Shown here one piece after another: positions 1-40,514 of a DNA stretch of 40,514 nt. Every line of letters starts with the position of its first letter. Position 1 is the first letter of the stretch. A program made the translations under genes and the position numbers. The DNA comes from an uncultured Bacteroidales bacterium (GTDB taxonomy: Bacteria; Bacteroidota; Bacteroidia; Bacteroidales; Bacteroidaceae). The stretch lies in assembly GCA_902788275.1 (NCBI GenBank), contig CADAJV010000011.1, positions 1 through 40,514 on the forward strand. The letters run 5' to 3'. The notes under the pieces were generated by a model that ran no database searches, was not told the origin of the DNA, and was given only the letters and a program-made list of their open reading frames with translations.

Positions 1-83
1 AAGAGCCTCGAGCTGTCATTTTCAAGGCTCTTAGATTTGGTTTCGAGGCTCTTAGATTTCGTTTCAAGGCTTTTAGTTTTGAT
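1..83. repeat. 21-bp tandem array 1 (cut by window edge)
   Basis: Three units of exactly 21 bp begin at 21, 42 and 63. Each starts TTCRAGGCTYTTAG and ends in a T-rich spacer. The first 20 bases hold the core in inverted form (AAGAGCCTCGAG), so the array is partly palindromic. On the minus strand a frame stays open through it with heptads ending in Leu-Lys/Arg-Ala. A -7 box at 94-101 points into it. The array probably extends left of the window. Confidence 0.75.
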
Positions 84-93
84 TTCCACAGGA

Positions 94-101
94 CAAAATT
101 A
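94..101 (-). promoter_or_regulatory. Bacteroidetes -7 box firing into array 1
   Basis: The minus strand reads TAATTTTG, a perfect match to TAnnTTTG. Transcription would start near 85-90 and read through the 21-bp array. A minus-strand ATG at about 103-105 opens a small frame through the array. No clear -33 element was assigned. Confidence 0.4.
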
Positions 102-183
102 CCCTGCATATTAAATCGTCTGTTTTTCAACTCTTTAACTGAAACAATGCAGGAATGTATGCAAAAAACATTTTATTTTTTTA

Positions 184-269
184 TAGGCAATGACACAGAT
201 GTTGGCGCAGAGAGAGCATGACTATTTCGCAGAGACTGTAATCTGTGCCAACTGCTATATTGTTGCCTA
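184..269. repeat. Inverted repeat with dispersed motif
   Basis: Arms at 184-212 and 239-269 are imperfect reverse complements over about 28 bp. Both carry the TAGGCAA start and GTTGGCRCAGA end, around a loop of about 26 bp. The reverse complement of 238-267 matches 40310-40339 at 27 of 30 positions, so this is a dispersed element and not just a local hairpin. It lies between the queA terminator and array 1. Confidence 0.7.
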
Positions 270-272
270 AGA

Positions 273-308
273 AAATTGCGCGCGTAAATAATATCTACGC
301 GCGCAATT
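273..308 (-). terminator. Rho-independent terminator of queA
   Basis: A near-perfect hairpin has arms AATTGCGCGCGTA and TACGCGCGCAATT around a short AT loop. On the minus strand a T-rich stretch follows. It lies 24 bp past the queA stop. Confidence 0.8.
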
Positions 309-2889: not shown

Positions 2890-4368
2890 CTAAAGGTGGG
2901 TGTTTTGCAATTTGTCGTGGCGTTTTTTCCATATCATGAACCACGCGATGGTGAGGGCGACGAGGCCCAGGCCTATGGCGTAGGCGATGGTGGAGGGCAG
3001 GGTGAAGCCCTCGGGGGCTATGCATATATAGGTGGAGCAGACGAGCATCATGAAGAGACCTGGGAGGAATGATACCCAATAGACTTTATGGCGCTTGGCG
3101 AGATAGACGCTGATGGCGAGGAAAGTGAAGACGGAGAGGGTCTGGTTGAACCAGGCGAAGTAGCGCCAGAGGATGTCGAAATTGATGAACATAAGCACTA
3201 TGCTGACGGCGAAGATGGGGGCAGCCAGCACGAGGCGCTTGTACACCTTGTTTTGCTTGAACTTCATAAAGTCGGCTGCAATCAGGCGAGCTGAGCGGAA
3301 GGCGGTGTCACCGCTGGTGATGGGTGCGGCTACTACGCCCAGTATGGCCAGGACGGCGCCTACTGTGCCGAGCCAGCTGTTGCAGATGGCATTGACCAGC
3401 AGTGCGGGCGAGACTTTGCCTGTTTCGGGATTGGTCATGGCGCTGATGAGTTTCTCATAGGGGGTGTTGCCCTCCACATTGAGGCTATCGGCAAACTTGA
3501 TGGCTGCGGCTGCCCAGATGAGGGCAACAAGGCCCTCGGTAATCATTGCGCCGTAGAACACTCTTCGGCCGAGGCGCTCGCTCTTCAGGCAGCGGGCCAT
3601 CATGGGGCTTTGGGTGGCATGGAAACCGCTGACTGCACCGCAGGCTATGGTGATGAACAGGCCCGGGAAGAGGGGGATGCCAGAGGAGGGATGATGGTTT
3701 TGGAAGGCTTCTGTAGCCTCCGGAATGTTGCCTGGGTATGCAAGGATGCCGTAAACTAAGCCGACTGCCATGGCAAGCAGTGCCACTCCGAAAATGGGGT
3801 AGATGCGGCCTATGAGCTTGTCGATGGGCAGCAAGGTGGCCATAAAATAGTAAATAAAGATTATGATTACCCAAAAGGTTTTTGACCAAAGGAAGCCGCT
3901 GTCGGGTATCATGCCGTCAAGCAGGTCGGCCGGAGTGGTGGCAAACACTGCGCCCACCAGCACCATAAGGGCAAGGGTGAGAAGGCGCATGCAGAAGCGG
4001 GCGCCACTGCCAAGCTCGTCACCAATTATCTCGGGCAGGCTGGCGCCGCCCTTGCGTAGGGAAATCATACCGCTGAGGTAGTCGTGGACAGCTCCCCCGA
4101 AGATGCAGCCGAGGACTATCCAGAAGAAGGCGGCGGGACCATAGAGGATGCCCAGTATGGCTCCGAATATGGGGCCGGTGCCTGCTATGTTGAGAAACTG
4201 AATAAGGTAGACTTTCCATGTGGGCATCGGTAGGTAGTCCACATCGTCCCGCATGGTATAGGCAGGCGTCTGAGCCTTGAAGTCGGGGCGGAATACCCGT
4301 TCAACTATGCGGCTATAGGTGAGGTAGCCGACAATGAGAAGCAGGAAGCTGATTACAAAGGTAAGCAT
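2890..4368 (-). CDS. cstA: Carbon starvation protein A (CstA) family carrier
   Basis: This is an inner-membrane carrier of the CstA family, whose studied members import pyruvate or peptides during carbon limitation. The 492 residues form a chain of hydrophobic helices from the first residue (MLTFVISFLLLIVGYLTYS). Family stretches include a DVDYLPMPTWKVYLIQFLNI segment, NIAGTGPIFGAILGILYGP and LGCIFGGAVHDYLSGMISLR, then GFHATQSPMMARCLKSE and ITSGDTAFRSARLI. Enterobacterial CstA is about 700 residues; this is the shorter form found in many anaerobes. A promoter box lies at 4449-4456 and a terminator at 2806-2844, so it is probably monocistronic. Substrate cannot be read from sequence. Confidence 0.93.
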   Translation of the reverse strand: MLTFVISFLLLIVGYLTYSRIVERVFRPDFKAQTPAYTMRDDVDYLPMPTWKVYLIQFLNIAGTGPIFGAILGILYGPAAFFWIVLGCIFGGAVHDYLSGMISLRKGGASLPEIIGDELGSGARFCMRLLTLALMVLVGAVFATTPADLLDGMIPDSGFLWSKTFWVIIIFIYYFMATLLPIDKLIGRIYPIFGVALLAMAVGLVYGILAYPGNIPEATEAFQNHHPSSGIPLFPGLFITIACGAVSGFHATQSPMMARCLKSERLGRRVFYGAMITEGLVALIWAAAAIKFADSLNVEGNTPYEKLISAMTNPETGKVSPALLVNAICNSWLGTVGAVLAILGVVAAPITSGDTAFRSARLIAADFMKFKQNKVYKRLVLAAPIFAVSIVLMFINFDILWRYFAWFNQTLSVFTFLAISVYLAKRHKVYWVSFLPGLFMMLVCSTYICIAPEGFTLPSTIAYAIGLGLVALTIAWFMIWKKRHDKLQNTHL

Positions 4369-8482: not shown

Positions 8483-10475
8483 CGGCATCAAGGCTGCTGC
8501 GCCCGCCGATGACTTTGAGTATAATAATGAGCGCTTTGCCGACCTGCAGATGCTGCGCTACAAGGTGCATGGATTTGAGCAGCTGACCGTGAAGCAGAAG
8601 ACCTTGGTCTATTACCTGAGTGAGGCTGCCCTCTGCGGTCGCGACATATTGTTTGACCAAAACGGAGCCTACAACCTGCGCATACGCAAGATGCTGGAGA
8701 CGGTCTATACCGACTTTAATGGCAACCGCCAGAGTGACGACTTCAAGGCTATGGAGGTCTATCTCAAGCGTGTGTGGTTCTCTAACGGCATACACCACCA
8801 CTACGGCTGTGAGAAATTTGTGCCCGGATTCTCTGAGGCCTTCTTCCGCTCAGCCCTCAAGGGCGTGGACAGTAATAAGCTGCCACTGCGCAAGGGCCAG
8901 ACTGTCGACCAACTGTGTGACGAGGTGTTCCCCGTGATGTTTGACCCCACGCTGATGACCATGCGCGTCAACCAGAAGGATGGCGAGGACCTGATTAAGA
9001 CCTCCGCCTCCAACTACTATGGCCCCGGGGTGACCCAGGCTGAGGCAGAGGCTTTCTATGAGGCACAGAAGGACACTATTGACCCTGAGCCCGTGATGTA
9101 TGGACTCAACAGCCGACTTATCAAGAAGCACGGCAAGCTGACCGAGCAGCGATGGACGGCCGGCGGACTCTACGGACAGGCTATAAGCAAGATAGTCTAT
9201 TGGCTCAAGAAGGCGGCCACCGTGGCCGACACGCCCCAGCAGAAGGATGTTATCAATGAGCTCATCAAGTTCTATAAGACCGGCGACTTGCGCACCTTTG
9301 ACTCTTATAGCATACTGTGGCTTAAGGACACCGAGGGCATGGTGGACTTCACCAACGGTTTTATAGAGAGCTATGGTGACCCGCTGGGCTTGAAGGCCAG
9401 CTGGGAAGGTTTGGCTAATTTCAAGGACTTGGATGCCACCAAGCGCACGGAGAAACTGAGCACCAATGCGCAGTGGTTTGAAGATAACTCGCCCGTTGAC
9501 CCTCGATTTAAGAAAGATGAGTGCAAGGGTATCTCCGCCAAGGTTATCACTGCAGCCATGCTGGGTGGCGACCTCTACCCCTCCACGGCTATTGGCATCA
9601 ACCTGCCCAACAGTAACTGGATACGAAAACAGCACGGCTCCAAGAGTGTGACTATCGGCAATTTGACCGACGCCTATAACAAGGCTGCCCATGGTAACGG
9701 ATTTAACGATGAGTTTATTTGCGACCCCACCGTGAAGGACCTGATAGATAAGTATGGTGATGTGTGTGATGACCTGCACACCGACCTCCATGAGTGTCTG
9801 GGTCACGGCAGCGGCAAGGTGCTGGAGGGTGTAAGTGATGATGCCCTCAAATCGTACGGCTCCACCATTGAGGAGGCGCGCGCCGACCTCTTTGCCCTTT
9901 ATTACCTGGGCGATCCCAAGCTGGTGGAGCTTGGCTTGACGCCTAACATGGATGCTTACAAGAGCCAGTACTACTACCAGATGATGAACGGCCTCATGAC
10001 GCAGCTGGTGCGTATTGAGCCGGGCAAGGATCTGGAGGAGGCTCATATGCGTGACCGCGCCCTAATAGCCAACTGGGCCTTTGAGCACGGCAAGGCCAAT
10101 AATGTTTGCGAACTTATAAAGAAGGACGGCAAGACCTATCTGCAGATAAATGACTATGACGCTTTGCGCCAACTCTTCAAGGAGCTGCTGATTGAGGTGC
10201 AGCGCGTGAAGAGCGAGGGCGATGTGGAGGGTGCCCGCCAACTGGTGGAGACCTACGGAGTGAAAGTTGACCCCGAACTCCACAAGGAGGTGCTCAGCCG
10301 CTATGAGGCCCTTAACCTGGCTCCCTACAAGGGCTTTATCAACCCTGTATATACTCCGGTGCTTGATGCCAAGGGCAAGATTCAGGATGTCAAGGTCAGC
10401 TACACCGAGGGCTATGCCGAGCAGATGCTGCGCTATTCTCATGATTATGGATTCCTTCCCTTTATTAATGAATAG
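8436..10475 (+). CDS. Secreted dipeptidyl-peptidase III (M49)
   Basis: DPP III is a zinc exopeptidase that removes dipeptides from peptide N-termini. The zinc motif HECLGH begins at His452 (family HEXXGH), and the second motif EEARAD, supplying the third ligand, follows near residues 479-484. The N-terminus (MKRTAILMTVALCMGSGIKA) looks like a signal peptide, so the protein is probably periplasmic or surface-exposed. Its 679 residues match the bacterial M49 size. The start lies inside the AraC-type gene (47-bp overlap). In gut Bacteroidales this enzyme probably feeds peptide use; that role is inferred. Confidence 0.93.
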   Translation: MKRTAILMTVALCMGSGIKAAAPADDFEYNNERFADLQMLRYKVHGFEQLTVKQKTLVYYLSEAALCGRDILFDQNGAYNLRIRKMLETVYTDFNGNRQSDDFKAMEVYLKRVWFSNGIHHHYGCEKFVPGFSEAFFRSALKGVDSNKLPLRKGQTVDQLCDEVFPVMFDPTLMTMRVNQKDGEDLIKTSASNYYGPGVTQAEAEAFYEAQKDTIDPEPVMYGLNSRLIKKHGKLTEQRWTAGGLYGQAISKIVYWLKKAATVADTPQQKDVINELIKFYKTGDLRTFDSYSILWLKDTEGMVDFTNGFIESYGDPLGLKASWEGLANFKDLDATKRTEKLSTNAQWFEDNSPVDPRFKKDECKGISAKVITAAMLGGDLYPSTAIGINLPNSNWIRKQHGSKSVTIGNLTDAYNKAAHGNGFNDEFICDPTVKDLIDKYGDVCDDLHTDLHECLGHGSGKVLEGVSDDALKSYGSTIEEARADLFALYYLGDPKLVELGLTPNMDAYKSQYYYQMMNGLMTQLVRIEPGKDLEEAHMRDRALIANWAFEHGKANNVCELIKKDGKTYLQINDYDALRQLFKELLIEVQRVKSEGDVEGARQLVETYGVKVDPELHKEVLSRYEALNLAPYKGFINPVYTPVLDAKGKIQDVKVSYTEGYAEQMLRYSHDYGFLPFINE

Positions 10476-19020: not shown

Positions 19021-20694
19021 ATGATAGAACACTTTCTAAAACAGACGATATTTGCTGACAATGAGGATTACAGGCGCAACCTGGAGTTCACGGTGCCCGA
19101 AAACTTTAACTTTGCCTACGACGTGATGGACCGCTGGGCTGCCGAGGCCCCCGACAGCGTTGCACTGCTATGGGCGCGCGAGAACGGCGAGCACCGCACG
19201 TTCACCTTCCGTCAGGTTAAGGAGGAGAGCGACCGCGCGGCCAGCTATCTGCAGAGTCTGGGCATAGGCCGCGGCGACAAGGTCATGATTATCCTGAAGC
19301 GTCGCTACGAGTTCTGGTTCACCGTGCTGGCCCTGCATAAGCTGGGTGCCATAGCCATACCCGCTACCCACATGCTCACCCGCCGCGACATCGTCTATCG
19401 CAACCAGAAGGCCAACATCAAGGCCATCGTCTGCGTGGGCGACGACTATGTTGTAGAGCAGATAGCCGAGGCCATGCCCGAGAGCCCCTCCGTCGATGTG
19501 CTGGTCAGCGTCGGTCCCATCGTGCCGATGGGCTTCCACAACTGGCACAGGGAGATAGGCAGCGCCAAGCCCTTTGTGCGCCCCACCGAGGTCAACACCA
19601 ATTCCGACGTGATGCTGGCCTACTTCACCAGCGGCACCAACGGCGAGCCCAAGATGGTGGCCCACGACTACACCTATCCCATTGGTCATCTCACCACCGG
19701 AGTCTTCTGGCACAACCTGCACATGGGCAGCATCCACCTCACTGTTGCTGACACCGGATGGGCCAAGGCCGCGTGGGGCAAGCTCTACGGTCAGTGGTTT
19801 GCCGGAGCCACAGTCTTTGTGCTCGACCAGGAGCGATTCAACGCCCAGCGCCTGCTGCAGGCCATCGAGAAATACCGCATCACCTCCTTCTGTGCACCTC
19901 CAACAGTCTATCGCTACCTTGTCCATGAGGATCTCAGCCGCTTTGACCTCAGTTCGCTGGAGTGGTGCACCACCGCCGGTGAGGCCCTCAATCCCTCAGT
20001 ATTCGACCGATTCAAGGCCGCCACAGGCATCAGCCTGCACGAAGGCTTCGGTCAGACAGAGACAACCATGACCCTCGGCACCATGCCCTGGGTGACACCC
20101 AAGCCCGGCAGCATGGGTCTGCCCAACCCGCAGTACAACATAGCCCTGCTACGCGCCGACGGCACGCCATGCGACGATAATGAGAACGGCGAGATATGCA
20201 TCATCACCAGCCAGGGCAAGCCCCTCGGCCTCTTCCTCGGCTACTTCGGCGACGAAGACCTCACCCGCAGCGTATGGCACGATGGCATCTACCATACCGG
20301 CGACGTGGCCTATCGCGACGAGGACGGCTACTACTGGTTCGTGGGACGTACCGACGATGTTATCAAGAGCAGCGGTTACAGGATAGGCCCCTTCGAGGTG
20401 GAGAGCGCACTGATGTGCCATCCCTCCGTAGTGGAGTGCGCCATCACCGGAGTGCCCGACGAGTTTCGCGGCATGGTCGTCAAGGCCACCGTCGTGCTCC
20501 GCGAGGACTGGAAGCCCCGTGCCGGCGAACCCCTCATCAAGGAGCTGCAGGAGCACGTCAAGCGTACCACCGCGCCCTACAAATATCCGCGCATCATCGA
20601 GTTTGTTGACGAGCTGCCCAAGACCATCAGCGGCAAGATACGCCGTGTGGAGATACGCCGGCGCGATGCCGAGAACGCTTCCGAAAACGGATAG
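19021..20694 (+). CDS. AMP-binding acyl-CoA synthetase
   Basis: This ANL-superfamily ligase adenylates a carboxylic acid and transfers it to CoA. The P-loop-like motif YFTSGTNGEPK is at 201-211. VADTGWAKAAWGKLYGQW, EGFGQTETT and YHTGDVAYRDEDGYYWFVGR follow, then DDVIKSSGYRIGPFEVES. The catalytic lysine is probably Lys539 in KTISGKIRR. At 557 residues it matches medium-chain acyl-CoA or acetyl-CoA-like synthetases of Bacteroidales. Exact acid unknown. Codons here are markedly richer in C/G at third positions than in pnp. A bidirectional terminator follows. Confidence 0.92.
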   Translation: MIEHFLKQTIFADNEDYRRNLEFTVPENFNFAYDVMDRWAAEAPDSVALLWARENGEHRTFTFRQVKEESDRAASYLQSLGIGRGDKVMIILKRRYEFWFTVLALHKLGAIAIPATHMLTRRDIVYRNQKANIKAIVCVGDDYVVEQIAEAMPESPSVDVLVSVGPIVPMGFHNWHREIGSAKPFVRPTEVNTNSDVMLAYFTSGTNGEPKMVAHDYTYPIGHLTTGVFWHNLHMGSIHLTVADTGWAKAAWGKLYGQWFAGATVFVLDQERFNAQRLLQAIEKYRITSFCAPPTVYRYLVHEDLSRFDLSSLEWCTTAGEALNPSVFDRFKAATGISLHEGFGQTETTMTLGTMPWVTPKPGSMGLPNPQYNIALLRADGTPCDDNENGEICIITSQGKPLGLFLGYFGDEDLTRSVWHDGIYHTGDVAYRDEDGYYWFVGRTDDVIKSSGYRIGPFEVESALMCHPSVVECAITGVPDEFRGMVVKATVVLREDWKPRAGEPLIKELQEHVKRTTAPYKYPRIIEFVDELPKTISGKIRRVEIRRRDAENASENG

Positions 20695-20806: not shown

Positions 20807-22093
20807 TTATTCATTGCGGAGCCATCCGCTGATGTTGCCTTTCACCTGGTCTCTGGCAAGGTCAGTCCTGACGCCGTATATATTAGGACAGCCGGAGAGG
20901 TCGAGGGTCGTAATCCTGTTTCTGTCGCAATAGAGTGTTTCGAGCTTGGGAGCACCGCTTAGGTCGAGACTTGTGAGGCTGTTTTCGCTGCAATCCAGAA
21001 TATCCAGTTCAAGTTTGCCGGAGAGGTCGAGGCTGGTCAGCTCGTTCTTGGAGCAGAAAAGCCTTTTTATCTCTGGGTTTTTTGACAAATCGAGGCTGCT
21101 CAGTGAATTGGCGACGCAGATGAGGTAGCGGAGCTTGGGGTTGTGGCTCACATCAAGGGAGGTAAGATGGCATTTATAGCATTCCAGGGCTTCCAACTCG
21201 GGGTTGTGGGAAAGGTCGAGGGTGCTGATTTCAGTACTGTTGCATCGCAGTTCCTCCAGGTATTTGAGCATAGTGACGTCGAGCGCGGTGATGGGATTGT
21301 CGCTGCATATCAGGAAGTCCAGGTCGGTGTTGTTGCTTACGTCGAGCGCAGTCAGTCGATTCTTTTGGCAATGCAGTTCCCCGAGCTTGGGATTGTGCGA
21401 CACATCGAGGCTGGTCAGCTCGTTTTCGTAGCAATGCAGGACTTTAAGATTGGGGTTGCAGGTGACGTCTAGCTCTTTTATCTTGGTGGTCATGCAGTAG
21501 AGCTGCGTGAGGGCTATGTTCTTGCTGACGTCCAGATTGCTGATATCGGTGTTTGTGCAGACGAGGCGCTTGAGAGCTTTGTTTCTGGCCACGTCGATAG
21601 AGGAAATGTGGTTTTGGCCGAATGCCAGTTCGGAGAGTTTCCTGTTTTTGGTTACGTCCAGCTTTGTAAGCTGGTTGAAGGCACAATCCAGGGTTTCCAG
21701 TTCTTTGTTCTTGGAGACATCGAGGTTCTTAATCTCGTTGAATTGGCAATTTATATGTCTCAGCGCCTTGTTGGCCGAAACGTCAAGCTCCGTGATAGAG
21801 CAGTGGGAGCAGAACAGTCTCTCGAGAGCGACGAAATGCTCGACTCCTTTCAGTGATTTCAGTTTTTTGTGGTGTACTGACAACTCCTTTACCGAGGCCA
21901 CTTGTGCGGCTGTCAGGGTCTCGCCTTCTGCTACGCCGGTTGCTTCGGCGACTTTGGCGCGGAATATGCTGTCGGGGAAGTTGACGCTGTTTATTGCCAC
22001 CGGCTTAGCCTTCTTGCCGTAGTCTTTGGCGCCGCCGAATGCAAAGATGCTGGCTGCGCTCAGGAGGATAGAAAATATCAATAATTTTTTCAT
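20807..22093 (-). CDS. Secreted leucine-rich-repeat protein
   Basis: Signal peptide (MKKLLIFSILLSAASIFA), then a helical cap (IFRAKVAEATGVAEGETLTAAQ), then about 15 LRRs of 21 residues from about residue 68. The repeat pattern is L..L.C..N.LTSLDVS.NP.L, the internalin-like type with a conserved Cys in most copies. The chain ends shortly after the last repeat with no anchor or sorting tail. Surface LRR proteins of this kind usually bind proteins or host ligands; the partner is unknown. It stands alone, with a promoter at 22167-22174. Confidence 0.85.
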   Translation of the reverse strand: MKKLLIFSILLSAASIFAFGGAKDYGKKAKPVAINSVNFPDSIFRAKVAEATGVAEGETLTAAQVASVKELSVHHKKLKSLKGVEHFVALERLFCSHCSITELDVSANKALRHINCQFNEIKNLDVSKNKELETLDCAFNQLTKLDVTKNRKLSELAFGQNHISSIDVARNKALKRLVCTNTDISNLDVSKNIALTQLYCMTTKIKELDVTCNPNLKVLHCYENELTSLDVSHNPKLGELHCQKNRLTALDVSNNTDLDFLICSDNPITALDVTMLKYLEELRCNSTEISTLDLSHNPELEALECYKCHLTSLDVSHNPKLRYLICVANSLSSLDLSKNPEIKRLFCSKNELTSLDLSGKLELDILDCSENSLTSLDLSGAPKLETLYCDRNRITTLDLSGCPNIYGVRTDLARDQVKGNISGWLRNE

Positions 22094-22166
22094 AGTATAA
22101 AAATTTTAAGGATTTGTTTTCTGTATCGCGGCTGAGAAGGGGAATGCTTCGGTTCTCCAACCGGTG

Positions 22167-22174
22167 CAAATATA
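22167..22174 (-). promoter_or_regulatory. -7 box of the LRR gene
   Basis: The minus strand reads TATATTTG, matching TAnnTTTG, about 75 bp before the LRR start. Confidence 0.6.
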
Positions 22175-22287
22175 CTACATTTTCTGTATGGATAAAGAAA
22201 ATATGCACAATTTTGTATGAATATTTAACAAAAAAAACATAAAGACAATTTTTTGATAAAGAATTACCGTTTTTAGAACTTTTTAGA

Positions 22288-22295
22288 TATCTTTG
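22288..22295 (+). promoter_or_regulatory. -7 box before the etfB fragment
   Basis: TATCTTTG matches TAnnTTTG and lies 19 bp before the ATG of the etfB fragment. It appears to be the original promoter, kept intact. A clear TTTG -33 element is not seen. Confidence 0.5.
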
Positions 22296-22314
22296 TGATA
22301 GGGTGCCAGATGCT

Positions 22315-22407
22315 ATGCGAAGTTGTAGATTAAAAATCGTTGTCTTAGCCAAGCAGGTGCCCGACACGCGTAATGTGGGCCCCGATGCTATGACTCCCGC
22401 GCCATGA
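22315..22407 (+). pseudogene. etfB: 5' fragment of electron-transfer flavoprotein beta subunit
   Basis: The 30-residue frame reads MRSCRLKIVVLAKQVPDTRN and continues VGPDAM before diverging (TPAP) and stopping. LKIVVLAKQVPDTRNVG.DAM is the N-terminal signature of Bacteroidetes EtfB as I recall it; the full protein is about 290 residues. No further EtfB sequence or etfA follows. The break coincides with the start of the 21-bp array. The final stop overlaps an ATG (ATGA) that opens a 36-codon frame of heptads inside the array. Probably a truncated relic rather than a working gene. Confidence 0.75.
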
Positions 22408-22409
22408 AC

Positions 22410-22766
22410 GCGAGAAGCCGTAATCTAAACGCGTTCTCCTGCATCGCAATTGCCTGCTCCTGTGTTCTAAAAGCGAGTAGCTGTAATCTAATCGCGACCT
22501 CCCGCGAAAATTCTTAAGGAATTTGAAATAATTCTTAAGGAATTTTCAAAAATTTCTAAGGAATTTTTTCATATTTCTAAGGAATTTTATAAGATTCCTA
22601 AGTATTTTTCAAAAATCCCTTAAGAATTTTCAAAGATTTCTAAGGAATTTTTCCACGAGCACGCGTTTATTTCGCAGCCTCTCAGCATCTCGTTGCGTTT
22701 CCTTGGTATCTAGTTGCGTTTTCTCGGCTTTAGAAAATTTTTCCTCAGCTTTTTGCGGCGTGAGTA
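22410..22766. repeat. 21-bp tandem array 2
   Basis: About 17 consecutive 21-bp units are in strict phase from 22410. The best conserved are the units starting at 22515, 22536, 22557, 22578, 22599, 22620 and 22641, with core TAAGGAATTTT. The flanking units keep the phase but drift: GCGAG-type starts on the left, and CAGC-, TGGT- or CGGC-type starts on the right. Its right part encodes the C-terminus of the small minus-strand protein at 22630-22959; its left part touches the etfB fragment. No spacers, so not a CRISPR. Confidence 0.8.
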
Positions 22767-22959
22767 AGGCGTTCTGATATTTCCTGCCATTGTAGTACAC
22801 CTCGTCGGGAATCCATATCTCTGGGGCTTCCCTCGGGGCACGCTTAACGTAGGCGGTCTTTTCGCTTTCGGAGAGTACGTCGTAATCTACTCCGCCAATG
22901 GTGAAGGCCTGGACGCTGATGCTGATTATTAACAGGAGGAATGAGAGAATCTTTTTCAT
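22630..22959 (-). CDS. Truncated BspA-like secreted protein ending in array sequence
   Basis: The 109 residues start at ATG 22959 with a signal peptide (MKKILSFLLLIISISVQA). The next part, FTIGGVDYDVLSESEKTAYV, then EIWIPDEVYYNGRKYQN, is the N-terminal cap normally found before BspA-type LRR_5 repeats. Instead of LRRs, the chain passes into charged heptads (AEKTQLD, TKETQRD, AERLRNK) encoded by array 2 and stops inside it. A longer start at 23094 runs through a terminator and is rejected. Either a decayed gene or a small secreted protein with a new helical tail. Confidence 0.6.
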   Translation of the reverse strand: MKKILSFLLLIISISVQAFTIGGVDYDVLSESEKTAYVKRAPREAPEIWIPDEVYYNGRKYQNALLTPQKAEEKFSKAEKTQLDTKETQRDAERLRNKRVLVEKFLRNL

Positions 22960-23004
22960 TTTTGCGGCGGTTTCAGTCTGTTTGTGCAATTTGTATTTTC
23001 GCGG

Positions 23005-23036
23005 CAGAGATACAATGATTAAATTGTGCGGCAAAA
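23005..23036 (-). promoter_or_regulatory. Promoter of the truncated BspA-like gene
   Basis: On the minus strand TTTTG is followed after exactly 19 bp by TATCTCTG (one mismatch to TAnnTTTG). The leader is about 40 nt. An intact promoter suggests the truncated gene is still transcribed into array 2. Confidence 0.6.
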
Positions 23037-23057
23037 TAATTGGTGGTAAAAAGTAAA

Positions 23058-23096
23058 AATGCGGCGCGAAAATCATTTGATTCTCGCGCCGCATTT
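23058..23096 (-). terminator. Terminator of the large protease gene
   Basis: AAATGCGGCGCGA pairs with TCGCGCCGCATTT, and the stem continues with AATCA/TGATT, giving about 18 bp with one mismatch. It is flanked by A and T runs and lies 17 bp past the stop at 23114. Confidence 0.85.
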
Positions 23097-23113
23097 GTCT
23101 GCTAAAGTGATTG

Positions 23114-26100
23114 TTATCTCACGATGATTTTCTGCCCGTTGGCAATGTAGATGCCGGGAGCGAAGGGGATGAAGTGGACGCCCTCCACGCGGTCGTTGAA
23201 TACGCACTGGCCGTCAAGGGTGTATATCTTGACGTCCTCGGCGTTCTCGCAGGCGAAGCGGATGGCACCGAGTGTGCCCTCTATGCTGGCGGCCTTGCCC
23301 TGGCGCACTGCGTCATAGACATGAGTGATGCCGTCGGCCTCGATGACTTCTGTCGGGCTGTCCTCGCTGAGGTCGAGGGTGAACACGCCCTTGCTGAGGC
23401 CCCATGCGTCGCCGTCGGGACCAAAGCCGATGCGGGTGAGGTCGATGGCGTTGGAGGTGCGATCCTTAACGCTGCCGCCGTCCTGATTGAAGTCATAGTA
23501 GGCCAGCAGGCCTGAGTTGCTGACGAGGTTGTCAATGTCGGTCAGGGGGGCGTTGATGTAATTCTTCATGGTGGAGAGCGACAGGGCCTTGGTCCAGATG
23601 CGCAGCTCGTCAATCTGACCCTTGTATCCGTCTTCGCCGCCGCTCAGAGTGAGCTTGCCCCAGTCGGTGGTGGAGGTGCCGATGCGTATGGAGGGTGAGG
23701 CAAAGAGCACTCCGTCGCGATAGAACTTGACGGTGCCGAAGGTATAGCTGACGGCATAGTGGTGCCATGTGCCGGGCAGCACATAGCCCTCATCGGAGCT
23801 GGCTGTCTTGTCGCCAATGGTTACTGACATCTCGCCGGTGGCATCGGTGGCAATGGTTACCTGCTCATTTTCTGTGGTCATATTGAGTGCGCCGTTAGCC
23901 TGGTAGGGCAGCATCCACCATTCGATGGTGAAGGCCTTGGTGCCGTCGGCAAAGAGGCCGGCAGTACTCTCCAGGCGTTCGCTGCCGCCCATTATGAGGC
24001 CGTTCTTGCTGTCGGCATTGAGCACCATGAGCATGCCCTGCTCGGTGGCCTCGCTTACGCCGAGGTCGTTGCTGCACTCGAGGGTGATGTCGTAGTAGCC
24101 GGGATGTTTAGGGGTGAAGGAGGAGTTCTGTCCGTGCACCTCATAGTCGTGTCTGCCGTTGGTGAGTTTCCAAACCCACGACTCGGGGCTCTGCTTGCTC
24201 TCGTCGATAAGGTAGGTGGTCTCGCCGAGCATGATGGTGCTGGGGTTGACGCTGAAGGCTACGCGCGGTGCTGACTTGGTGACGGTGACATAGAGGGTCT
24301 TCTTGCTTTCGCCGCCAGAGTTGCTGGCCGTGAGGGTGATGGGGAATACGCCGCTATGGCTGTAGGTGATGCCGGCATTGACGGCGTGTATCTCCTCCTG
24401 GTCGGCGCCGGGAGCGCTCCAGGTGTAGGTGCAGTTGTCGCCGCTCGACTGGTTGGCCAGGCTGAAGAGCTCGCCCTCGGCCAGCTCGGTCTGGGCAATG
24501 GTGAAGTCGGCCACAGGGGCCTCGGGGCTGAGTACTGTGATGATGCGCGTGCTGTCGGCGGTGTTGCCCTCGTTGTCAGTGATGGTGTGGGTGATGGGGT
24601 AGGTGCCTGGCTCGTTGAATACGAAGTAGGGATTGACGGCGCTGGCTTCCTTGTTGACTGCGTCGGGAGCCGACCAGTGCCAGTCAACGGAGTTGACCAT
24701 GGCGGTGGACTTCAGTCCGAAGGGTTCGCCTGCGAAGACTGACTCTTCGGGCATGGTGAAGGAGGCCACGCAGGCTACTACCGGTGCGCCCAGTATGGTG
24801 GCGTCTTTAACGGTCTCGGCGGAGCCTACGGCTATGTCGTAGCCCGAGGCGTAGTCCTTGATGAAGAGTTTGCCGTCGGCTTCGTAGGTGGCCATGGGGT
24901 AGTAGGCCAGCAGGTCGGTCTGGGCCGAGGGCTTGGCCACGGCGAGGCCTTTGTTGCGGTATATCTCAATCTGGCTGAGGGGCTTGGTCCAGATGCGCAG
25001 CTCGTCTATCATGCCGTTGTAGGAGCCGATGCAGAAGTTCTTGAGCGCGGGTATGCCCTGATAGGAGCTGGTGGTGGTGCTGCCCTTCTTCAAGCCGTTG
25101 ACATAGAGGGAGAGCGTGTTGCCGTCCACCACGATGGCAATATGGTACCACTTGTTGGTCCTGATGGTGTTGGTGGTGCTGATGAGGCGGTTGTTGGCAT
25201 CCCATCCCACCTGAATCTGGCCGGTGGTGCTGATGCAGAAGAGGAATGAGCCCCAGCCTTCGCCAATCTGCATGCTGTTGTTGGAGAGTGATGCGGCGTT
25301 GAGCCAAAACTCAATGGTGGCCTGATTAAGGCCGTTGCTGAGGAGGCCGCTGACAGAGGCGCTGGCATTGTCCAACTTAAGCACCTCGTTGTCCTGGTCG
25401 GAGATGATGTCGCCAGTGTTTCGGGCGGGGATGCTCTTGGCAGACTCCACGCGCTTGCCGCGATATTCGTAGGCAGTAGCTACATAGTAGGTGGCATCCT
25501 GGTCGTCAACAATATAGGAGTGGCTCATGGAGGGCACCTCGGCTACCTTGTCGCTACCTTTATATATATAGTAGCGTGCAATGTTGTAGCTCGATTTCTT
25601 GGGTTCGTTCCAGGAGAGCCGCTTTTGGTTGAGGCTGACATTGAGCGGAGTGTAGAATTGCTGACCCAGGGAGGTGACGGAGAGCAGGGTGGTCTTGCCA
25701 CCATTAAGGATGGCCACGGTGTCCACCTTGGTGGGAATCTCCAAGCCTTCGGGGTCGTAGGTGTAGTCCATCAGCGAGAGCTTATAGACGGTGCCCTCGC
25801 CGACGGCCTTGGCCTTGCTGTTAATCTTGAGGAAGTATTTGAGGGGCTTGCTCAGGTCGTAGCCCTCGGTGAGGTCGGTTACATCGTAGCCAAACTCCAT
25901 AGGCTCGTAGTTCATCCTGCCTTTCCATTTGCCCAGCATTGGCACTTCGGGCTCAGGCAGGTTGTTTTTCTCTGTTTCGCTTTTCTGACCATTGCCTGCA
26001 AAGTCGAAGAAGGGCATCGTCTCGGTCTTACGCGGCTCGAGGGCGGTGGTGTCGGTGCTGATGCCGGCACTGATGCTTATCTCTGAGCGGCGGCTATAGT

Positions 26101-27151
26101 CCATGACAATCTTGAATACGCGCTTGGGCTCGTAGTCCTTACGCCAGGTGTAGTGGCCGGAGTTCATGGGGATAGAGTTGGTGCCGATGGCGTAGCTGTA
26201 CTTGTAGGGGCAGTAGATGAAGCCCTTGTTGCACCATCCTGCGCCCCATGAGTTGCAGATAATCCAGGCGCCGACCTCGTCCTTGTCTTTCTCGCCGCAG
26301 ACCCCGTTCTGGTCAAGGTCAAATTCTATGCGGTCGTCATAGCCCACCACGGTGAGGGCGTGGTCGTAGGTCTTGCCCCAGGCGCCGACATACTTCATGC
26401 CGGAAACGCCGATGGCGCGATTGGTGGCTGTGTTGGGAATGTCAAGCCAGGTGCCGCCGCTGGCTACACCTATGCCGCTAACGCCGCCGCACCAGAAACT
26501 CTCGTCGCCCCAGTGATTCCACAGGTACTGCTTCAGCTGCTCACGGCCGAGCTCAGTGGTCTGGTCGGCATCGCAGAAGGTGTCGCCGCCCAGGGTGCGG
26601 TTGAACATCGCCGAGTACCACTTGTCGTATCCCTGCATATAGCCGTAGTCGGGATTGCTTGTGTCCTGCAGACCGAAAGTCTGGCTATAGGTGCGGCCAC
26701 CATAGGTGGCCACGTTGGGTACGCCGTGGCGATTCATGATTTCGTATTTGCCAATGCCGGCATTGGTATGCAGCCAGGTGAAGTGGGTGGGCAGCTGGTT
26801 TTCCTCGTAGGAGGCGTCGGCATTGCGGTAGGCATTCATCTCCAGCGTCATGGTGTAACCGACGGCCTGCGCCGAGCCACATGAACCGCCACTCTGGTTG
26901 AATACGGGCGGGAAATATTTGGTCAGCGCATTGTTGATGTGGTCGGGACGCTCAGTGCCATAGAGCGAACTGCGGGCTACGCCGCTGGTAGGTATCTTCC
27001 TGACGGTGGTGGAATAAGTCTTCTCAATCTTTGGGTTGGGGTTGGCGTCCGGGTAAGCCTTATAGTCCACAGGAACATCCTGGGCGCTGATGGTGTTACA
27101 GGTCAGTGCTGCAACGGCTACAAACAGCCAGTTTTTTAGAATGTTTTTCAT
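23114..27151 (-). CDS. Large secreted papain-like protease with LamG/PKD domains and sorting tail
   Basis: The 1345 residues begin with a signal peptide (MKNILKNWLFVAVAALTCNT). A C1 papain-like domain covers about 70-330: Gln86 and nucleophile Cys91 in FNQSGGSCGSAQA, His264 in YDHALTVVGYDD and Asn300 in IICNSWGAGW. A fibronectin-like stretch follows, then a LamG-like domain at about 595-750 (GMIDELRIWTKPLS). Next come three PKD domains at about 780-1060 (VDWHWSAPDA, YTWSAPGADQ, WVWKLTNG) and a second LamG (KGQIDELRIWTKALS). The end VKIYTLDGQCVFND...PGIYIANGQKIIVR is a type IX secretion type sorting tail. It is likely a surface or released protease; the substrate is unknown. The start was chosen at 27151 because an upstream TTG extension lacks signal features. 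Confidence 0.9.
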   Translation of the reverse strand: MKNILKNWLFVAVAALTCNTISAQDVPVDYKAYPDANPNPKIEKTYSTTVRKIPTSGVARSSLYGTERPDHINNALTKYFPPVFNQSGGSCGSAQAVGYTMTLEMNAYRNADASYEENQLPTHFTWLHTNAGIGKYEIMNRHGVPNVATYGGRTYSQTFGLQDTSNPDYGYMQGYDKWYSAMFNRTLGGDTFCDADQTTELGREQLKQYLWNHWGDESFWCGGVSGIGVASGGTWLDIPNTATNRAIGVSGMKYVGAWGKTYDHALTVVGYDDRIEFDLDQNGVCGEKDKDEVGAWIICNSWGAGWCNKGFIYCPYKYSYAIGTNSIPMNSGHYTWRKDYEPKRVFKIVMDYSRRSEISISAGISTDTTALEPRKTETMPFFDFAGNGQKSETEKNNLPEPEVPMLGKWKGRMNYEPMEFGYDVTDLTEGYDLSKPLKYFLKINSKAKAVGEGTVYKLSLMDYTYDPEGLEIPTKVDTVAILNGGKTTLLSVTSLGQQFYTPLNVSLNQKRLSWNEPKKSSYNIARYYIYKGSDKVAEVPSMSHSYIVDDQDATYYVATAYEYRGKRVESAKSIPARNTGDIISDQDNEVLKLDNASASVSGLLSNGLNQATIEFWLNAASLSNNSMQIGEGWGSFLFCISTTGQIQVGWDANNRLISTTNTIRTNKWYHIAIVVDGNTLSLYVNGLKKGSTTTSSYQGIPALKNFCIGSYNGMIDELRIWTKPLSQIEIYRNKGLAVAKPSAQTDLLAYYPMATYEADGKLFIKDYASGYDIAVGSAETVKDATILGAPVVACVASFTMPEESVFAGEPFGLKSTAMVNSVDWHWSAPDAVNKEASAVNPYFVFNEPGTYPITHTITDNEGNTADSTRIITVLSPEAPVADFTIAQTELAEGELFSLANQSSGDNCTYTWSAPGADQEEIHAVNAGITYSHSGVFPITLTASNSGGESKKTLYVTVTKSAPRVAFSVNPSTIMLGETTYLIDESKQSPESWVWKLTNGRHDYEVHGQNSSFTPKHPGYYDITLECSNDLGVSEATEQGMLMVLNADSKNGLIMGGSERLESTAGLFADGTKAFTIEWWMLPYQANGALNMTTENEQVTIATDATGEMSVTIGDKTASSDEGYVLPGTWHHYAVSYTFGTVKFYRDGVLFASPSIRIGTSTTDWGKLTLSGGEDGYKGQIDELRIWTKALSLSTMKNYINAPLTDIDNLVSNSGLLAYYDFNQDGGSVKDRTSNAIDLTRIGFGPDGDAWGLSKGVFTLDLSEDSPTEVIEADGITHVYDAVRQGKAASIEGTLGAIRFACENAEDVKIYTLDGQCVFNDRVEGVHFIPFAPGIYIANGQKIIVR

Positions 27152-27187
27152 ATAGCTTGTTTTTCTGTTTATCAGAGAATTTGATTG

Positions 27188-27195
27188 CAAATTTA
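27188..27195 (-). promoter_or_regulatory. -7 box of the protease gene
   Basis: The minus strand reads TAAATTTG, matching TAnnTTTG, about 37 bp before the start at 27151. Confidence 0.6.
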
Positions 27196-27248
27196 AATAT
27201 AAATTGGAATACGCGCGCGAAAAAGACGTCGGTTTTGCCAAAAATCCC

Positions 27249-40438: not shown

Positions 40439-40514
40439 ATCATTGCCTAAGTTTAATCTAATCCCCTTGAAAAAAGTTTTAACTCCGTGGAAAAATAAAC
40501 TAACTCCGAGGAAA
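40439..40514. repeat. 21-bp tandem array 3 (cut by window edge)
   Basis: Units begin at 40439, 40460, 40481 and 40502 in exact 21-bp phase. The last three share AAYYCC followed by a GGAAA or TGAAA core. In one frame they encode heptads such as LIPLKKV and LTPWKNK. The array very likely continues past the window. Confidence 0.65.

Follow-up and report, generated by a model that had tools for sequence, protein, structure and literature searches.

An array of 21-bp units that lies between two gene fragments of an uncultured Bacteroidales bacterium raises two questions: what keeps the period while the letters of the units change, and whether the array has to do with the loss of the adjoining genes. 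The DNA analysed here, referred to as the window, is a contig of 40,514 nucleotides (contig C11 of the source genome G000, whose assembly comprises 2.48 Mb in 93 contigs; C, L and G denote contigs, loci and genomes). The array belongs to a class of intergenic palindromes composed of direct repeats of about two helical turns, 21 bp here and 22-23 bp in some relatives. These arrays keep phase about a dyad, recur in the genome with a common consensus, recur at orthologous places and at one locus have changed their letters in concert; in the window, the array coincides with a rearrangement.

Periodicity and symmetry of the array

The initial annotation described about 17 units that drift in sequence but hold exact 21-bp phase. 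This was confirmed: 17-18 units, arranged head to tail with no spacers between them, stay in phase throughout 22394-22764, arms and centre alike, and the array starts one unit earlier than annotated, at 22394. Identity at a lag of 21 bp was 0.54 for 22410-22766 (z 11.7 against 300 dinucleotide shuffles). The left arm (22394-22514, + strand) is built of CTCCYG...AATCTAANCGCG-kind units, with letters of the AATCTAA kind, and the right arm (22662-22764, - strand) of units that are their mirror image. Between them lies an AT-rich centre (22515-22661) of seven nearly self-complementary TAAGGAATTTTCAAAAATTTC units, with a lag-21 identity of 0.71 (z 9.5). Both outer parts differ from the centre in their letters, yet each gave its own lag-21 peak, with z 4.5 on the left (22410-22514; lag-42 z 4.0) and 3.5 on the right (22662-22766). 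The 21-bp peak thus reaches outside 22515-22661. The flanks at 22288-22410 and 22767-23036 gave no clear lag-21 peak (z 0.9 and 1.6).

Overlooked in the first reading was that the whole array is a palindrome. Ungapped comparison of 22394-22764 with its reverse complement gave a single palindrome with its best dyad at 22579, where pairing was 0.56 over ±170 bp as compared to a shuffle maximum of 0.37±0.01. Alternative dyads 10.5 and 21 bp away were weaker (0.51, 0.48 and 0.45). Counted per 21-bp block from the ends to the centre, 13, 10, 8, 5, 12, 14, 16, 15 and 12 positions were paired, and beyond 22394 and 22764 pairing dropped to 7/21 and 10/42. An automatic extent rule ended this palindrome at 210 bp owing to two poor blocks, the sixth and seventh from the centre (3/21 and 8/21 by the rule's count). 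We extended it by hand to 22394 and 22764, as pairing recovers to 12/21 in each of the blocks that follow, the eighth and ninth.

Gene remnants and rearrangement at the array

Both flanking genes are truncated at the array, as annotated. On the left, an etfB 5' remnant of about 23 codons (22327-22399, + strand) matches the 5' end of etfB on contig C42 of G016 with 97% identity, and this identity stops at 22399; compared with the intact etfB of G000 itself at C5:44564, 22327-22397 shows 93% identity. The proposal that etfB had retained its promoter and start was refuted, since about 190 bp up to codon 3, including promoter and ATG, are deleted relative to G016. On the right, the remnant is the N-terminal part of a BspA-like protein (22633-22959, - strand, 109 aa) whose last residues are array sequence. 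It is 40-43% identical to the N-termini of long BspA-like ORFs (689-711 aa) in G002, G007, G016 and G000:C41, and a Pfam search with it gave no match. Search alignments ended at query residues 65-77 (22765-22729); by eye, clear identity to these paralogues ends at residue 61-62, near 22774, ten bases from the right end of the palindrome.

The join between etfB and the array is a 6-bp in-phase microhomology. The sequence CTCCCG at 22394-22399 (+ strand) is common to etfB and the array unit and is in 21-bp phase with CTCCYG at 22436, 22457 and 22499. Past the join etfB of G016 reads ACTCCCG AGGGC and the window reads ACTCCCG CGCC. Upstream in the window are a leucine-rich-repeat (LRR) protein gene (20807-22093, - strand; PF12799, E 3.8e-33) and an AMP-binding, acyl-CoA synthetase-like gene (19021-20694, + strand; PF00501, E 1.1e-64). 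In G016 and G007 the LRR gene adjoins etfB, the order being LRR gene, spacer and intact etfB. An AMP-binding gene is located directly 5' of etfB in G008, G002 and G004, but not in G009. Judged from these gene orders, the former position of etfB was most likely 22330. Today the etfBA genes of G000 and their promoter region are found from C5:44386 onward, and C11 is left with 73 bp of the 5' end. The remnant and the C5 copy differ at 5 positions in 71 bp, one at the left join and the other four synonymous in the etfB frame; with mostly synonymous differences, the remnant would have belonged to a functional gene until a fairly recent time.

The block to the right of the array (23115 onward) begins with the gene for a 1375-aa surface protein (23114-27241, - strand). 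The block is on other contigs than etfB in G016, G007, G002, G008 and G004; although a number of these contigs are short, etfB of G002 is deep within a 173-kb contig. In G016 this 1375-aa gene is followed, about 0.9 kb past its end, by an array on C98 that matches 22646-22686 with 78% identity in 41 bp (E 0.003). This copy of the array marks a lineage-specific rearrangement, and the place is a synteny breakpoint. Misassembly of the window was rejected, as the junction combines a deletion with a 6-bp microhomology and the centre matches other copies at only 75-82% identity. The idea that the array is a mark of breakage thus holds here, where both fragments end at or near its edges. It fails as a general rule: five other G000 arrays (two at L187 and one each at L188, L189 and L190) have flanks that are collinear in at least one relative, and arrays are therefore not general rearrangement breakpoints.

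Some further features were noted around the old and new positions of etfB. Window positions 21900-22330, covering the LRR gene start and the spacer, are 97% identical to G016, whereas most other compared stretches are about 85-88% identical; this suggests a recent exchange. At L062 (G000:C5), inverted copies of a 10-bp-unit array plus a 48-bp repeat (4124-4348 and 8801-8908) bracket the relocated etfBA genes and an adjacent block that follows etfBA in relatives too, as if the etfBA block were a cassette that had moved or been inverted. Just upstream, L062 3953-4120 holds a 21-bp array.

Arrays of the same class in the source genome

G000 has 71 places per strand where two CTWAG cores are spaced at 21 bp, as compared to 7 for a reversed control. 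The AT-rich centre family was found at seven other strong G000 loci with 75-82% identity. When written in 21-bp rows, several G000 loci show a left arm, a centre and a mirrored right arm, and the phase survives the changes of unit type. A period spectrum (13-60 bp) of 199 kb of G000, comprising C1, taken for length, and C5, already known to hold CTWAG arrays, gave six detections at 21 bp and four at 42 bp. In 100 kb of G002 there were four at 21 bp and three at 42 bp, and no period besides 21 bp and its double exceeded two detections.

A common unit consensus near GAAATYTAANNNCG was obtained from 91 sequence windows of G000, with a score of 7.7 against 4.08±0.06 for permuted columns; the loci behind 77 of the 91 had been selected by the CTWAG pattern or by arrays. 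The 14 sequence windows from C1 and C5 alone gave the same motif on the other strand (TTAGATTT..TTC..CGCGA), scoring 6.58 against 4.04±0.21. Among array entries with at least two motifs per orientation, the motifs point inward in 18 of 25 and do not in the other 7, some arrays being entered twice through overlapping loci. The dyad, length and fold tests used arrays hand-picked from those already seen. An ungapped dyad above shuffles was present in 22 of 23 such arrays, the arms of which differ by roughly 26-52%. By the automatic rule, the length of 22 measured palindromes ranged from 126 to 378 bp, and eleven were 294-378 bp long.

The window and other contigs contain further repeats. A second 21-bp array of the window, of the CTTAGATTT... 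type, is located at 20-86 and is repeated at contig ends: CTTAGATTT-type arrays occur at or near the window ends (1-55 and 40452-40514) and at the starts of G000 contigs C15, C24, C33 and C36. Such repeats are a probable cause of breaks in the assembly. Beside the array at 20-86, at 195-275, is an element of about 80 bp whose ends are inverted (GGCAATGACACAGATGTTGGC). IS-like ends of the GGCAATGACACAGATGTTGGC kind interrupt one array centre in G016, and others are beside arrays at contig starts; the loci concerned are L208 1-95, L095 1-98, L233 and L234. The possibility that the array near window 1-290 lies inside an IS was dropped because the neighbouring ORF at L065 reads as the GTPase TypA rather than as a transposase. 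Heptamer arrays, CCTAACT at 612-665 and TTTGAGA at 1132-1162, are inside a minus-strand ORF (332-1660).

Distribution in relatives

The survey was extended with contigs picked for length (among them G002:C3 and G013:C10) or from earlier hits; in G001:C107 and G009:C1 the sampled DNA covers sites of arrays that were already known. A further eight congeners (400 kb, coding status disregarded) gave nine detections at 21 bp, nine at 22, one at 23, six at 42, five at 44 and one at 46, with at most two at any other period. The detection threshold was 0.60 for these eight and 0.62 for G000, G002, G013, the named loci described below and E. coli. All five single-period detections in G009 were at 22 bp, and the sole detection in G012 (60 kb) was a 23-bp array. 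Neither G013 (100 kb sampled) nor G005 (60 kb sampled) gave any detection. In total, 21- or 22-bp arrays were present in 7 of 10 sampled congeners. The centre family of L189 and its G016 counterpart L228 had 68 matches in G009, with 40 scored candidates; these copies have the core TTCATATATGAA or TTATAAGAA, and a period of 22 bp in those that were read. Positions 19195-19344 of L266 in G012 hold a 23-bp array (CTAAGTTAGGCAACTAAAGCACC) with the unit length of BrickBuilt, an element discussed below.

Named records were sampled at 80 loci (1.07 Mb) chosen by an unrelated gene. They gave nine detections at 21 bp, 18 at 22 and 10 at 44, with three or fewer elsewhere, and 22 of 27 detections were less than half within long open frames. 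One array was at L116, from the cultured relative Xylanibacter muris. Two of the 80 loci are labelled Akkermansia, and the nearest locus (L107) may be from the same genus. The best named-record matches to one window gene have Prevotella, Prevotellaceae, Bacteroidaceae and Bacteroidales titles, many from rumen samples. For the dyad test, six of the 27 detections were set aside, namely five located in open frames and L178, which looked coding; the other 21 were tested. A significant ungapped dyad was found in 16 of the 21 arrays and was missing in 5; none of 20 random segments had one. No period gave a detection in 150 kb of E. coli.

Orthologous spacers

Five G000 arrays were traced into relatives, of which G016 was the closest congener compared. 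An array was present in all four evaluable orthologous spacers of G016, three of them without alignable letters at the thresholds used. The two L187 spacers each lie with their flanks on one G016 contig; L189 is represented by the array and the downstream gene only, and at L190 an IS-like element splits the array, so that its flanks are on two contigs. Over the 18 kb of G016:C43 that were compared, arrays occurred solely at the two orthologous spacers. One spacer holds arrays in G000, G016, G002 and G008 whose letters are mutually dissimilar by eye. The L188 spacer has arrays in G002 and G008 as well, whereas no array was found in the L189 and L190 spacers of these two genomes; the second L187 array was not evaluable there. 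Since arrays are missing from these spacers and from the G013 and G005 samples, any function is not essential genus-wide.

The one alignable pair, L189 of G000 and L228 of G016, matches without gaps over 281 bp at 30% divergence, with length and register kept; BLAST placed four gaps with zero net length change. All seven centre cores differ, being of the CTAAG or TTAAG type in G000 and CAATATG in four of seven in G016. At the control ratio described below, the absence of indels in this pair had a probability of about 0.01, which is suggestive only. Compensatory pairs numbered 8 at the true dyad and 7 and 6 at dyads 21 bp off, and covariation is therefore no proof of arm-to-arm pairing. The view that period is kept over sequence was borne out within the array, between orthologous arrays and in other genera.

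Coding capacity, gene context and RNA folding

Selection for heptad-coding frames, the second suggestion for the strict phase, does not explain these arrays. None of 11 detections in G000 and G002 was inside a long ORF, many arrays have a 22-bp period, and the + reading of the window centre, in the etfB-frame region, is full of stops. On the - strand, a stop ends the reading once it has passed through the right arm and the edge of the centre. With no open frame through the array, a coiled-coil coding repeat was rejected. A CRISPR array was also rejected, there being no unique spacers between units.

The gene context varied with the sample. Seven of 9 placed detections in G000 and G002 (L209 and L222 each counted twice) were between convergent genes, compared with 29 of 198 neighbour pairs. 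The 80 named loci gave 4 convergent, 8 tandem and 6 divergent contexts, that is, divergent enrichment and no convergent bias. For the 32 hand-picked arrays, a cruder count of 30 contexts found 14 to be convergent, 11 tandem and 5 divergent. By eye, a pair of inward terminators encloses the array in one G002 and G008 spacer, which makes DNA the likelier level of action. An intrinsic terminator was rejected as a general role since the arrays are long AT-centred dyads, not short G+C hairpins followed by a T run.

Predicted RNA folding was stronger than that of shuffled sequences (12 shuffles each) in 30 of 32 arrays at z ≤ -2.0, and two did not fold. The z values were -14.9 for L222, -13.4 for L055 and -5.4 for the window; L055 and L222 fold mostly into one hairpin. 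An Rfam search of 21900-23200 gave 12 matches, all far below gathering scores and mostly to miRNA precursor families, because hairpins alone produce such matches.

Possible function and origin of the arrays

The persistence of arrays in spacers and of their dyads, the separate terminators and the lack of hairpin-specific covariation together favour an element that acts as double-stranded DNA. We give a probability of about 0.45 to the reading that two-turn spacing and dyad are under selection, probably as a protein-binding scaffold, and that the array is also a fragile site. Selection would maintain spacing and symmetry since the element acts as duplex DNA: a candidate dimeric protein may bind every two turns on one helix face and spread symmetrically from the centre, possibly forming a nucleoid or supercoil domain element. 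The preferred letters may drift with the binding protein, with ectopic conversion homogenizing the copies. As a long palindrome the array would be break-prone; in the window a break may have removed most of etfB, after which the broken end would have been joined to an outer array unit via CTCCCG, with the etfBA block now elsewhere in the genome. Counting against a scaffold, two turns of B-DNA correspond better to 21 bp than to 22 or 23 bp, compensatory changes are no more frequent at the true dyad than one unit off it, and there are poor blocks, 7 of 25 entries without inward polarity, 5 of 21 arrays without a dyad, and patchy presence. That such elements are defined by geometry across Bacteroidales, with two-turn spacing and a single dyad selected and with letters that track a fast-evolving DNA-binding protein genome-wide until orthologous arrays are unalignable, seems rather unlikely to us.

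The main rival, which we doubt but regard as a substantial possibility, is functionless satellite-like DNA in which slippage adds units, strand switching at the centre mirrors the arms, conversion spreads unit types and spacers tolerate the result. Local homogeneity, switches of unit type within arrays, centre types common to several loci, the 7- and 10-bp arrays in these genomes and the patchy distribution among relatives all agree with it. However, it leaves the preferred 21-22 bp period unexplained, and arms that are 26-52% apart nevertheless share one ungapped register in 22 of 23 arrays. By our own reckoning from a control with 9 gap openings per 171 substitutions, each array should have had a few indels; as the dyad test favours indel-free arrays, this is suggestive only. 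A mobile element of the MITE kind, comparable to BrickBuilt and with a transposase acting in trans, appears improbable. It would account for the many dispersed related copies, for presence and absence at orthologous spacers and for the small inverted-repeat element and IS-like ends beside or inside some arrays, but the arms vary by locus, common termini or target duplications were not seen by eye, and an orthologous spacer holds its array despite changed letters. Moreover, the REP-type (Y1) transposase PF01797 was found in only 4 of 19 genomes, G000 being among the 19; they include the array-bearing G002 but not G000, G016 or G009.

A transcribed giant hairpin, serving as bidirectional terminator, RNA stabilizer or RNase III substrate, is quite improbable in our view. 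The fold scores, the single hairpins of L055 and L222 and the convergent context in the G000 and G002 sample agree with such a role. It is contradicted by the terminators that flank the array in one spacer, the missing convergent bias at the 80 other loci, the two unfolded arrays of 32, covariation that is not hairpin-specific and the lack of an Rfam match near gathering score. Very improbable is the proposal of the initial annotation that cutting or insertion at gene 5' ends is caused by the array: the breakpoint is real and both fragments stop at, or close to, the edges of the palindrome, but the five arrays with collinear flanks argue against it and the 6-bp microhomology is what end joining would give.

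Comparison with known repeat families

REP and BIME elements bind gyrase and are targeted by IS elements. They resemble the present arrays in being extragenic and palindromic with species-specific letters, but REPs are 20-40 bp hairpins, most tagged GTAG/CGTC and often accompanied by a Y1 transposase (PMC3733652), whereas here units of 21-23 bp build long mirrored arms and PF01797 was not found in G000. Mobilization by a REP/RAYT system was rejected on the genome distribution of PF01797 given above.

Iterons and the ends of Tn7 and Mu have binding sites of about 21-22 bp spaced two turns apart, in two arrays that face each other. In contrast, the present arrays consist of hundreds of bp of continuous repeats with only the palindromic centre between the arms, and no replicon or transposase gene was seen at the array in the window.

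The nearest described element is BrickBuilt, a 23-nt minisatellite inside a MITE of Porphyromonas gingivalis (PMC4596501). The two are alike in occurring in the same order, in intergenic location, in many copies and in head-to-tail imperfect units of about two turns, as well as in predicted stem-loops and in other elements inside or beside some copies (PMC4596501). BrickBuilt copies have one common 23-nt unit, and most have a leader or tail and inverted-repeat ends; here the units are specific to locus and species (21-23 bp, and 21 bp in G000) and common termini were not seen by eye. A further difference from BrickBuilt is that here the arms mirror about one dyad and position may outlast letters. 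The sole comparison of filled and empty sites, L190 against G002 and G008, showed no clean insertion. No description of this array class was found in the open-access literature searched, most subscription papers being outside its scope.

Significance

Elements kept by period and symmetry are difficult to detect with the usual similarity-based repeat finding and may be widespread in a main bacterial order of gut and rumen. The class is a measurable case of motif turnover at many loci, and it is relevant to breaks in assemblies, to IS insertions and to the relocation of at least one gene. To our knowledge, little is known about the nucleoid organization of these bacteria. If the arrays are true binding platforms, they would show how these bacteria lay out their chromosome.
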